Origin: Bacillota bacterium
Lineage (GTDB): Bacteria; Bacillota_I; Bacilli_A; RF39; UBA660
DNA length: 64,000 nucleotides
Direction: 5' to 3'
NCBI GenBank assembly: GCA_015059405.1
Contig: SVAL01000001.1
Location: 136,032 to 200,031, forward strand
Below the pieces are notes generated by a model. It made no database searches, was not told where the DNA came from, and worked only from the letters and a program-made list of their open reading frames with translations. Each line of letters starts with the position of its first letter. Position 1 is the stretch's first letter. Of the stretch, positions 2,472 to 26,232 are shown in pieces. The position numbers and the translations under genes are program-made.

Positions 2472-2499
2472 TTGACAAAAGACCGGGGGGGGGTAAGAT
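2472..2499 (+). promoter_or_regulatory. Promoter with G9 tract in the spacer, probable phase-variable switch
   Basis: A perfect -35 box TTGACA (2472-2477) and -10 box TAAGAT (2494-2499) are separated by 16 bases, of which the last nine (2485-2493) are all G. Such a G run is out of place in this AT-rich chromosome. Slippage to ten Gs would give the optimal 17-base spacing; eight would give 15. Poly-G or poly-C spacers control phase variation elsewhere, for example Neisseria porA. The same element recurs at 24442-24469 with only a few substitutions. It drives the prepilin-like gene at 2528. Variable length is inference from one sequence. Confidence 0.8.
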
Positions 2500-2527: not shown

Positions 2528-3973
2528 ATGAAGAATAAAAAAGGTTTTACATTAATAGAGTTACTAGCAGTAATAGTAATATTAGGGTTATTAATGGCAA
2601 TTGCTATACCAAGTGTAACTAAGTATATAACACAGTCTAGAAAAAAGACGGTGGTTAATACAATTGGTAACTATATAACAGCAATGGTAAATGAAGTTAA
2701 TGATTTAACTTATACATTTACTGAAGCCAATACTATATATGCAGTTCCAATAGAATGTATAGCTTTAGAACGTGGAGGAACAAATCCATTTGGCGCATGG
2801 CATCAAGCAAGTAATGCTTATTGGGCATATGTACTTGTGCAATATGATGATGAAACATCATCGTACACTTATGGATATACTTTTAAAGATAGTGCAGGAT
2901 ATGGATTATATCCAACAGCACAATCAAAATTAAATGAACAAGGAAAACAAATCCAAACAGGACTTGATTTGTCTTTGCCTTTAAATGGTAAAGCGGTAAA
3001 TGTAGTTTCTATTAATAAGTGGACTGGTTTTGAAGTAGATTCTACTACTGATTTAGTTGTTTTAATGTCAGAGAGCGAAGGAGAAGTTGGAGATGGCAAG
3101 ACAACATGTACACTTCAACAAAAAGGGGATAATTATGCAAATGTAGAAGAGGAAAAGGTAACTAGGCCGCAATTATTATCTAAATTAATTAAATTAAATA
3201 ATACTACAATAATGTCTAAACCAACACTAACAACTACAAGTGAAGAAGCAAATGAAAAGGGTTTATATATATCAACTGATACCAATAGTGGAGATGCAAC
3301 ATATTATTTTAGAGGGGATGTACAAAATAATTATGTTAAATTTGCAGGACAAACTTGGAGAATAATAAGAATAAATGAAGACGGCTCAGTAAGGTTGATA
3401 ATGCCACATGTATCAACAGTTTCATTTAATACAACTTCTAATAATTATAAATATATGTATTATTCTAATAGTGATACAATAAAGAATAAAGTAGAAACTT
3501 GGTATAAAACCAATATTGATGATAAAGGATATGATGCTTATGTAATTAATGGAATGTTCTGTGAACAAGCTAAAGCAAAGTATTCAACTATCTGGGCTAG
3601 TGGAAGTGCAATTATGGAACCTTACTCTTCTTATACTCCAAATTTTAAGTGTTCAATAGATGGAAATGGAAAAGGAATACTTAGTAGTAAGGTAGGATTA
3701 ATAACATACGATGAGGTAGTACATGCGGGAGCTTATCCTTATAAAACAAATGAAAAGTATTATCTAACTACTGGCAATTGGTTTTGGACAATGAGTCCAG
3801 CAGGTATTGACTCTACACTTTCGGGAGTGTGGTATGTAGTTAATGTAGGTAGTATATATATTGATTATGTTCATGATTCTGGAAGTTTACGTCCAGTCAT
3901 TAATTTGAAATCAGATGTACTCGCAACAGGTACAGGTACTTCATCAGATCCTTATGTAGTTCAAACTAATTAA
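2528..3973 (+). CDS. Large prepilin-like protein with C-terminal lectin-like domain (paralogue 1)
   Basis: The N-terminus is a textbook type IV prepilin signal: KKG then FTLIELLAVIVILGLL, with Glu at mature position 5, cleaved by a prepilin peptidase. At 481 residues it is far longer than a major pilin. Residues 1-205 closely match the gene at 25027, after which the two diverge. The C-terminus (WFWTMSP...LRPVINLKSDV) looks like a DUF6273 or C-type-lectin-like fold, suggesting a surface adhesin or tip pilin. ATG 2528 is chosen over the in-frame GTG at 2519, which overlaps the RBS AAAGGAG (2513-2519). Expression is probably phase-variable through the G9 promoter. No pilus assembly genes are in the window. 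Confidence 0.85.
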   Translation: MKNKKGFTLIELLAVIVILGLLMAIAIPSVTKYITQSRKKTVVNTIGNYITAMVNEVNDLTYTFTEANTIYAVPIECIALERGGTNPFGAWHQASNAYWAYVLVQYDDETSSYTYGYTFKDSAGYGLYPTAQSKLNEQGKQIQTGLDLSLPLNGKAVNVVSINKWTGFEVDSTTDLVVLMSESEGEVGDGKTTCTLQQKGDNYANVEEEKVTRPQLLSKLIKLNNTTIMSKPTLTTTSEEANEKGLYISTDTNSGDATYYFRGDVQNNYVKFAGQTWRIIRINEDGSVRLIMPHVSTVSFNTTSNNYKYMYYSNSDTIKNKVETWYKTNIDDKGYDAYVINGMFCEQAKAKYSTIWASGSAIMEPYSSYTPNFKCSIDGNGKGILSSKVGLITYDEVVHAGAYPYKTNEKYYLTTGNWFWTMSPAGIDSTLSGVWYVVNVGSIYIDYVHDSGSLRPVINLKSDVLATGTGTSSDPYVVQTN

Positions 3974-23619: not shown

Positions 23620-24397
23620 AAATCAATTTAAAATTTCTTTTTTAAGTGTTAAATATGCTTTGATGAGGGAAATGCTTAATAAGACTACTTTTATTACTAA
23701 TGTATTATTTATGATACTTAATAATGCTAGTTTTATTGTTCAATGGATAGTACTTTTCTCTTTAAAAGATAATGTAGGTGGTTATACATTTGATCAAGTA
23801 ATGCTTTTATGGGGAATATCAGCTGGTACTTATGGTGTATCTCATTTCTTCTTCTCTAATAGTTATCATTTATCAGAACTTATCAATAATGGAAAGTTAG
23901 ATAGTTTTTTAGTACAACCTAAGAATGTATTATTATCTGTTATTACAACTGATGTTACTACTTCTGCGTTAGGGGATATAATATATGGATATTTAATGGT
24001 ATTAATATTTGGATTAACACCTTTAAATCTATTATTGTTTACAGTATTTTCTATACTTGGAGGTATTACACTTACTTGTATATCTATTATTTTAAATAGT
24101 TTAAGTTTTTGGTTTAGTAAAACAGATGTTATTGCTGATACTGGTAATAATATGATGACTAATTTTGCTAATTATCCAGATGGGATATTTAAAGGTGGAA
24201 TTAAGTTAATGTTTTTTACTATTTTACCAGTTGCGTTTGTTAATCATATACCTGTTCAATTATTAACTAAGTTTAATTTAGGATTGTTTTTAATAGTAGT
24301 TTTAGTAACTATAATATTTATTATTTTAGCGTTTACTATTTTCTATAAAGGATTAAAAAGATATTCATCAAGTAATTTGATGGTAGCAAGAATATAA
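23603..24397 (+). CDS. ABC-2 type exporter permease (COG3694-like)
   Basis: The 264-residue second permease has six spans and the family-like segment ANYPDGIFKGGIKLMFFTILPVAFVNHIPVQLL before the last span, characteristic of COG3694. It begins within the end of the preceding permease gene and closes the operon before a terminator. Confidence 0.87.
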   Translation: MLMEVKNQFKISFLSVKYALMREMLNKTTFITNVLFMILNNASFIVQWIVLFSLKDNVGGYTFDQVMLLWGISAGTYGVSHFFFSNSYHLSELINNGKLDSFLVQPKNVLLSVITTDVTTSALGDIIYGYLMVLIFGLTPLNLLLFTVFSILGGITLTCISIILNSLSFWFSKTDVIADTGNNMMTNFANYPDGIFKGGIKLMFFTILPVAFVNHIPVQLLTKFNLGLFLIVVLVTIIFIILAFTIFYKGLKRYSSSNLMVARI

Positions 24398-24421
24398 AGA
24401 ACTATTTTTATAGTTCTTTTT
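24396..24421 (+). terminator. Terminator of the GNAT/ABC operon
   Basis: AAAGAACTAT and ATAGTTCTTT form a stem with a T-rich loop and T run, overlapping the last permease stop. Confidence 0.85.
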
Positions 24422-24441
24422 GTGTGCAAAAATGTAAAACC

Positions 24442-24469
24442 TTGACAAAAGTCCGGGGGGGGGTAAAAT
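24442..24469 (+). promoter_or_regulatory. Second promoter with G9 tract in the spacer
   Basis: TTGACA (24442-24447) and TAAAAT (24464-24469) are separated by 16 bases ending in nine Gs (24455-24463). Flanks match the element at 2472: TGTAAAA before the -35, AAAG then CC before the G run, and ATTTAAAT after. It drives the PH-domain gene at 24493. Confidence 0.8.
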
Positions 24470-24492
24470 TTAAATGGAAGGAGTTTATTTAT

Positions 24493-24915
24493 ATGGAAAA
24501 AAATATAAGAGAGGGAAAAATTTCTGTTGCAGTTTTGATTATAAGATTAATAATTGATTTTTTTGCAATGATTATATTTATTGGTTTTGTTTGGATTGTA
24601 CGAGATATAATTAAATTTTTTACTACAAAGTTAATTATAACAAATAAAAGGGTTGTTGGAAGAACTGGACTTATTAATACAAATGAACTTGATAGTCCTT
24701 TGAATAAGATTAATGGCGTTCAAGTTAAACAAGGATTGTTTGGAAAAATTTTCAATTATGGTACGATTTCTATTACTACAGCATCTACTATATTTCATTT
24801 TGATATGATAAGCGAACCAAATGAATTCAAAATGATTTTAAATAATCAAATTGAAATATATGATGACGAAAGAATAGAGAAGCAAGCAAGAAAAATGGCA
24901 GAAGCAATGAGATAA
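24493..24915 (+). CDS. Membrane PH-domain (bPH2/YdbS-like) protein
   Basis: The 140-residue product has a hydrophobic hairpin (VAVLIIRLIIDFFAMIIFIGFVWIV) followed by a bacterial PH-like domain: LIITNKRVVGRTGLINTNELDSPLNKINGVQVKQGLFGKIFNYGTISI. Such proteins sit at the membrane; function is mostly unknown. ATG 24493 with AAGGAG (24478-24483) is chosen; 23 further upstream codons would run through the promoter. Expression is probably switched by the G9 promoter. The second prepilin-like gene follows. Confidence 0.8.
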   Translation: MEKNIREGKISVAVLIIRLIIDFFAMIIFIGFVWIVRDIIKFFTTKLIITNKRVVGRTGLINTNELDSPLNKINGVQVKQGLFGKIFNYGTISITTASTIFHFDMISEPNEFKMILNNQIEIYDDERIEKQARKMAEAMR

Positions 24916-24942
24916 GGATGAAATTTATTTTCATCTTTTTTT
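24916..24942 (+). terminator. Terminator of the PH-domain gene
   Basis: GATGAAA and TTTTCATC form the stem, followed by seven Ts, separating the PH-domain gene from prepilin-like gene 2. Confidence 0.8.
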
Positions 24943-24973
24943 GTGCAAATAAGAAAGTATTATGTTTAAATTG

Positions 24974-25002
24974 TTGATATGTAAAAATATTAATGTTAAA
25001 AT
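24974..25002 (+). promoter_or_regulatory. Promoter of prepilin-like gene 2
   Basis: TTGATA (24974-24979) and TAAAAT (24997-25002) have a 17-base AT-rich spacer without any G run, unlike the promoter of paralogue 1. Confidence 0.65.
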
Positions 25003-25026: not shown

Positions 25027-26232
25027 ATGAATAAAAGAAAAGGTTTTACATTAATAGAATTATTAGCAGTAATAGTAATACTAGGTTTACTTATGGCAAT
25101 CGCAATACCAAGTGTAACTAAATATATAACAGAGTCAAGAAAGAAAACTGTTGTTTCAACTATTGGAAACTATATAACAGCCACAGTAAATGAAGTAAAT
25201 GATTTAACATATACATTTACTGAAGAAAATACTATATATGCAGTACCAATAGAGTGTATTGCTTTAGAACGTGGTGGAACCAATCCATTTGGAGCATGGC
25301 ATCAATCAAACGATAGTTATTGGGCATATGTTTTAGTACAATATGATGATGAAACATCTTCATACAGATATGGATATACATTTAAAGATAGTGCTGGTTA
25401 TGGATTATATCCAACTGCTCAGTCTAAATTAAATGAAGGTGGAAAGCAAATTAAAACAGGACTTAACTTAAATAGACCTAAAAATGGCAAAGTAACAATT
25501 ATTACTGCTGTTGATAATTGGAATGGATTTAGTGTTGATAGTACAACAAATTTAGTTGTATTGATTCCTGAAAGTGAAGGAAATATTGGCAATGGTACTT
25601 CTACATGTACACTTCAACAAAAAGGGGACAATTATATACAAGTAGAAGAAGAAAAAGTAGAAGCCAATAAACCTGGTAAAGTAGTTAGTGGAACAGGAAC
25701 TGATATTGGCGATAAAATTTGTTTTGGAAGTGAATGCTTTTTTGTTATAGAAAGCGACTTGTCAACAATAACGATGTTAGCAGAAGAAAAAATAGATGTA
25801 ACTGTAGATGATCCAAAACAAAATGCTTCTGCGCCAGGACGTGCATTTTCAAATTCTTATTATTGGTATGATGGTGAATTGAAACCGGAATACGGGAATA
25901 AAGTTCCAGCTTTTGTTTATGATAGTAACTCAGCTTTATATCAATATATAGAGGCATATGAAGACTATTTACAAGAAGATTTAGGAGTATCAAGTGCGTC
26001 TGCTAGTATGATAAGTGAAGAACAGGTGGAAAAGTTAGGATGCTCAGGTTCGGGATGTGATGGTTCCCCATACAAAAATTGGGTAGTTCGTGGTTATACT
26101 TGGTGGACTGGATCGGCACATTATTATCTTGGTTATCTTGGTTCTAATGGTGTTTATGGACTTTGGGAACCGCAAAGCAGGTATGGAGTACGACCAATTA
26201 TAACAGTAGATAAAACTCAAATTAAATTTTAA
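25027..26232 (+). CDS. Large prepilin-like protein with C-terminal lectin-like domain (paralogue 2)
   Basis: The product has 401 residues. The prepilin signal (RKG then FTLIELLAVIVILGLLMAIAIPSVTKYI) and the next 190 residues closely match the gene at 2528, ending in the shared CTLQQKGDNY and VEEEKV. Many codons differ silently, so the similarity is maintained by selection, not recent copying. The C-terminal part is different and ends WWTGSAHYYLGYLG...YGVRPIITVDKTQIKF, again lectin-like/DUF6273-like. ATG 25027 with AGGAAG is chosen over GTG 25021. Confidence 0.85.
   Translation: MNKRKGFTLIELLAVIVILGLLMAIAIPSVTKYITESRKKTVVSTIGNYITATVNEVNDLTYTFTEENTIYAVPIECIALERGGTNPFGAWHQSNDSYWAYVLVQYDDETSSYRYGYTFKDSAGYGLYPTAQSKLNEGGKQIKTGLNLNRPKNGKVTIITAVDNWNGFSVDSTTNLVVLIPESEGNIGNGTSTCTLQQKGDNYIQVEEEKVEANKPGKVVSGTGTDIGDKICFGSECFFVIESDLSTITMLAEEKIDVTVDDPKQNASAPGRAFSNSYYWYDGELKPEYGNKVPAFVYDSNSALYQYIEAYEDYLQEDLGVSSASASMISEEQVEKLGCSGSGCDGSPYKNWVVRGYTWWTGSAHYYLGYLGSNGVYGLWEPQSRYGVRPIITVDKTQIKF

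Follow-up and report, generated by a model that had tools for sequence, protein, structure and literature searches.

The locus analyzed here raises the question of why the gene for a PH-domain membrane protein shares a promoter built around nine consecutive guanines with a prepilin-like gene 22 kb away, and whether such promoters form a switchable regulon across the genome, as an earlier note on this DNA had proposed by analogy with the invertible promoters of Bacteroides, with slippage as the basis. In the window (the whole 64,000-nucleotide stretch that was analyzed), the G-tract promoter of the PH gene occupies positions 24442..24469 of the plus strand and consists of TTGACA (24442-24447), AAAGTCC, G9 (24455-24463), and TAAAAT (24464-24469), with a 16-bp spacer. 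The element, which reads TGTAAAACC-TTGACAAAAGTCC-GGGGGGGGG-TAAAATTTAAAT, is followed by TTTAAAT on its 3' side and preceded by AAATGTAAAACC, a conserved upstream block of the promoter family (24430..24441, plus strand; consensus over 20 copies, borders approximate). The sister promoter, TTGACAAAAGACC-G9-TAAGAT, at 2472..2499 of the same strand, reads TTGACA-AAAGACC-G9-TAAGAT and also has a 16-bp spacer. Both elements were confirmed by reading the window sequence, in which the pattern occurs exactly twice, against a shuffled expectation of 0.17, even with two mismatches allowed. The original observation of a shared G9 promoter is confirmed as real and was, if anything, understated.

Transcriptional Context of the PH Gene

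Consistent with the earlier assignment, the gene behind the element (24493..24915, plus strand; ATG at 24493) encodes a 140-aa membrane protein with a hydrophobic N terminus and a bPH_2 domain (E 2.5e-15). It forms a unit of its own, flanked by two U-tailed hairpins on the plus strand, one located 5' of the promoter (24394..24425; -9.2 kcal/mol, z -5.0), which is likely the terminator of the ABC-transporter genes, and the other following the PH gene (24914..24945; -8.5 kcal/mol, z -3.6), likely a terminator as well. Neither hairpin was picked up by a G-C-based terminator scan; the stem of the one at 24394..24425 is A/U rich.

Prepilin-like gene 2 (N_methyl; 25027..26232, plus strand; ATG at 25027) does lie beside the PH gene, as had been pointed out, but the link implied by this adjacency was not borne out: gene 2 is not driven by a G-tract promoter and is preceded by an ordinary one, TTGATA-17-TAAAAT (24974..25002, plus strand). 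Because of this promoter and the separating hairpin, inclusion of gene 2 in a PH operon is disfavored. Prepilin-like gene 1 (N_methyl, 481 aa; 2528..3973, plus strand) is a member of the G-tract regulon, and the description of the two genes as one paralogue and the other was mistaken, given that the genome encodes 26 close prepilin-like paralogues. No G6+ tract was found near three better homologs of the PH gene, which rules out conservation of its G-tract promoter in these relatives; within the regulon, this promoter is an outlier.

Recurrence of the Promoter across the Host Genome

The host genome (1,544,594 bases in 21 contigs, ~79% complete, with a GC content of 24-30% in the stretches read) contains 18 matches to TTGACA-N7-G7 and 0 to the reversed control. 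These matches represent 17 distinct loci, the head of contig C3 and the tail of contig C9 being one locus in overlapping contigs, and a further copy with a heavily interrupted tract (GGAGGGAGGGA, ~C5:81.8k) brings the total to 18. The downstream genes encode 16 prepilin-like proteins (MKNKKGFTLIELLAVIVILGLLMAIAIPSVTKYI), the PH-domain protein, and a lipoprotein of 177 aa that carries a tRNA_anti-like domain, and all 18 copies are oriented toward the downstream gene in the assembly. The genome search suggested in the earlier note yielded, rather than two similar promoters of constant length, 17-18 loci with tracts of G7, G8, or G9, including one locus with both G8 and G9. Uninterrupted tracts are exactly G9 in 13 of 16 cases, less variable than free slippage might give, and copies within the genome show strong conservation of the bases beside the tract, AAAGWCC and TGTAAAA. 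G7+ runs in the host genome are confined to the element, with a single exception (L042:8819, corresponding to G000:C5:63818), a G7 run situated a few bases 5' of an ATG and 3' of a TATAAT-like box and preceding a 159-aa reading frame.

The 26 close prepilin-like paralogues, 16 with and 10 without the tract promoter, are 80-92% identical over residues 1-150 and only ~15% identical past residue 200. By appearance, these G000 proteins are products of domain shuffling, with a common pilin head and tails that are unrelated after residue 200. The host genome also encodes a prepilin peptidase and PilB/GspE-type ATPases. In one prepilin-like gene (L111; G000:C8:46121-46552), behind an intact G9 promoter at C8:46065, an in-frame TGA stops the reading frame after 90 residues.

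Most promoter copies travel with the duplicated 5' end of a prepilin gene. The PH and lipoprotein genes share with the prepilin genes only the ~45-bp promoter, and on the prepilin tree, which is poorly supported, the tract promoters do not form one clade, promoter type requiring 5 changes over the 16 genes with and the 10 without. The promoter-only sharing and the scattered placement fit copying or conversion of the promoter independent of the gene, although this is not proven because the coding heads may recombine and because of the poor support of the tree. Of the proposed "mobile or duplicated cassette," the part with support is a promoter shared by unrelated genes and placed off the gene tree; no mobility feature was found.

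Promoter Spacing and Tract Length

As in promoters of the porA/tp0126 type, a homopolymeric G tract lies between recognizable -35 and -10 boxes, and the length of the tract sets their distance, with G9 corresponding to 16 bp and G8 to 15 bp. The spacer of the tract-free promoters in the prepilin gene family is exactly 17 bp in all 7 clearly scorable cases (L107, L117, L121, L122, L123, L126, and L128), a set from which we left out L114, where the promoter is not clear, and L129, where the upstream sequence is the same as that of L130 and the 17-bp reading scores just below another. The two interrupted tracts give 17 bp (G7AGG) and 18 bp and should slip less. Given tracts at 15-16 bp against the ordinary 17 bp, most loci are, in their assembled majority state, 1-2 bases short, and most would have been off or weak in the sampled population.

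Across 121 promoters from the family, matches to the -10 box peak 15-21 bp from TTGACA. The numbers of bases before and after the tract compensate for each other (Spearman -0.71, 95 distinct cores), and their sum has a variance of 4.3 compared with 12.9 after permutation, with 0 of 10,000 permutations as low, a P value that is optimistic because cores within one genome are related. This compensation indicates selection on the total promoter spacing, with the tract as the adjustable component.

Variation of tract length comes closest to being observed directly at the locus shared by contigs C3 and C9, where the tract is G8 in one contig and G9 in the other, with flanks identical over 118 and 21 bp. 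The assembly broke at this locus, and the difference, the sole same-locus case, may include sequencing or assembly error. Among the fetched loci, no other same-locus pair was convincing; L083/L084, considered as a second one, have only 34 bp upstream in common. Copies with the same core also differ in the number of guanines within relatives, from G9 to G14 in G020, from G11 to G13 in G018, and from G9 to G11 in G143. By hand count, ~30 of the ~90 listed family sites are within 150 bp of a contig end, which may be due to repeated gene 5' ends or to a mixture of tract lengths. In several genomes, such as G398, G141, G200, and G283, contigs break within ~150 bp of G-tract promoters that point outward. 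A MutS gene is present in the host genome and in nearly all relatives, and slippage therefore does not stem from a missing mismatch repair system. In Neisseria, mutS loss speeds the switching of mononucleotide tracts, yet switching does not need it (PMC3639595).

Distribution in the Family and Beyond

The pattern TTGACA-N4..8-G8 was identified in 65 of the 386 family genomes (~17%), representing 42 of 150 genera, and its poly-C equivalent in 0 of 386, which, together with the shuffles and the 0 matches to the reversed pattern in the host genome, rules out a chance origin. The promoter core differs from genome to genome (TTGACAAATATGC, TTGACATTTGTA, TTGACAGAGGTC, TTGACATATAAAT, and others), and the tract and the total spacing persist even where the cores differ completely. 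With its many members and small, AT-rich genomes, the family probably belongs to the RF39 group. When G8+ runs were fetched regardless of context from 20 positive genomes, a -35-like hexamer was found just 5' of 23 of the 30, and most were followed by a surface-type gene.

Enrichment for surface proteins, the check that had been proposed for the downstream genes, proved strong. A hydrophobic N terminus is encoded by 63 of the 81 genes downstream of the promoters and by 70 of the 198 remaining genes at these loci (p 9e-11). The corresponding counts are 31 of 42 and 102 of 369 (p 7e-9) in another set, consisting of named contigs among the matches listed; a -10 box was required for inclusion in this set, and it has a few genomes in common with the family set. 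The products are prepilin-like, lipoprotein, or signal-peptide-like, also in keeping with the porA/tp0126 type, and their exposure is predicted. In the family, they include prepilin-like, InlB-repeat, and DUF285/LRR proteins; products with a short signal resemble TasA/camelysin by eye and have no Pfam match. In one relative (L097, G035), two G-tract promoters precede the genes for a pair of large proteins (1031-1039 aa) in which hydrophobic stretches lie close to the N terminus.

Among the matches listed, those in named contigs come from Clostridia, Bacilli, Treponema, Saccharibacteria, and others, where single matches may be due to chance. The same design precedes a lipoprotein-like gene in Pumilibacter muris, the record of which bears the title of a strain, not of a MAG. 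A phylum-level sample, in practice drawn from the same class, was positive in 24 of 392 cases. The reversed control (C8, gap, ACAGTT) gave 12 matches in a single family genome, G251, where it is a repeat.

Weighing of Alternative Explanations

The uniformity of the host genome, with its predominance of G9, the strong conservation of AAAGWCC and TGTAAAA, and a tract that is always G on the coding strand and never C, could also be expected if the tract were a fixed site, bound by a regulator or acting through DNA shape, that co-regulates the genes without its length serving as a switch. We consider this improbable. The cores are completely different between genomes in which tract and total spacing persist, tract lengths vary between copies with the same core and at one locus, and the experimental precedents with the same layout act by spacing. 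Still harder to sustain is ordinary duplication, whereby the prepilin family would have multiplied together with its promoter, carrying the G tract along as a functionless, passive hitchhiker: such a history accommodates the 16 of 18 copies that precede paralogues with near-identical 5' ends, but not the two unrelated genes that carry the promoter alone, the recurrence of the design with other sequences before unrelated surface families across the family, or the spacing compensation around the tract, and a long G tract free from selection would decay at 24-30% GC.

Poly-G tracts can, in addition, be suspected of being sequencing or assembly artifacts, as two-color chemistry calls G when the signal is lost; many of the tracts in relatives are near contig ends, and one contig-end tract reaches G22. 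For the window, this explanation is refuted, both tracts being deep inside a 226-kb contig with a promoter and a gene on either side, and for the promoters in general it deserves hardly any credence, since poly-G is far more common in promoter spacers than elsewhere and the Pumilibacter muris strain record has the same design. Only the extreme lengths at contig ends stay doubtful.

Discussion

Overall, we consider it highly probable that these elements constitute a slippage-driven, phase-variable surface regulon, with sigma-A-type promoters that carry a G tract in the spacer. Against this reading speak the predominance of G9 in the host genome, the single same-locus length difference, the presence of MutS, and the lack of a tract near the homologs of the PH gene. 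The earlier proposal of a genome-wide regulon of surface genes is upheld by the 17-18 loci, by the occurrence of G8 and G9 at one of them, and by the surface enrichment in relatives. Slippage of the DNA polymerase at replication would add one or a few guanines to the slippage-prone tract, or remove them, and thereby reset the distance between the -35 and -10 boxes, from 15 bp with G8 and 16 bp with G9 to what would be 17 bp with G10. The distance would move through the working range of the sigma-A polymerase, so that transcription would go down or up reversibly, with each locus switching independently of the others. Cells would then differ in the surface proteins they make from a regulon that comprises the PH protein, the lipoprotein, and ~16 prepilin-like genes, which are nearly identical at their 5' ends and unrelated at their 3' ends; in the case of the PH gene, a small membrane protein would be present or absent in an on/off manner. 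We infer that expression here depends on tract length, that the tract slips often, that spacing is optimal at 17 bp, and that the benefit lies in surface variation. The 17-bp spacing of the tract-free promoters lends indirect support to an effect of tract length through spacing.

The family-wide recurrence suggests that turning surface proteins on and off through DNA slippage is widespread. A more far-reaching generalization, which we offer tentatively and rate slightly below an even chance, is that promoters with a poly-G spacer commonly switch surface genes in this large uncultured family of gut Bacilli. Each species would have its own core, copied from one surface gene to another, unrelated one and held uniform across the genome; the unit that spreads and defines a stochastic, combinatorial surface repertoire would then be the promoter rather than the gene.

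It has been proposed that homopolymers serve many prokaryotes as reversible gene switches; the respective survey of 99 genomes concerned tracts in coding sequences, mainly poly-A/T, with poly-G generally underrepresented (PMC2831843), whereas here the tracts are poly-G and located in promoters. In the open-access literature, we found no paper linking RF39 to phase variation and no survey of poly-G tracts in the promoters of gut Firmicutes, which is weak evidence of absence. One of the closest likenesses is to porA of Neisseria meningitidis, in which a poly-G tract is also positioned in the -35/-10 spacer and 9, 10, or 11 guanines result in low, medium, or high expression of the surface protein (PMC3639595). 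However, porA is one gene of a Gram-negative pathogen, whereas one promoter family is present here at 17-18 loci of a genome of Gram-positive lineage, and its designs recur in dozens of genera. Poly-G tracts in the promoters of several surface genes are also shared with Treponema pallidum (tp0126 and tpr), where they are variable and where tp0126 is transcribed best when the tract sets the -35/-10 spacing to 17 (PMC7864442). The transcription start of tprL is 4 nt 3' of the tract, a different geometry, and the passages considered describe no shared multi-gene core with homogenized sequence (PMC7864442).

So far, slippage promoters have been described for a few genes in well-studied pathogens. 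The design reported here would govern an entire surface regulon of one uncultured gut bacterium, and it recurs with other sequences in the family and in other classes. In Bacteroides, which is a gut commensal, recombinase-driven inversion of promoters switches many surface genes stochastically. The two systems, which belong to different families, are similar at the population level but differ in mechanism, slippage taking the place of inversion by a recombinase. If it works as inferred, the state of the switch would be readable from tract lengths in existing metagenomic reads, and gut Bacilli would possess a switch similar in scope to promoter inversion in Bacteroides.
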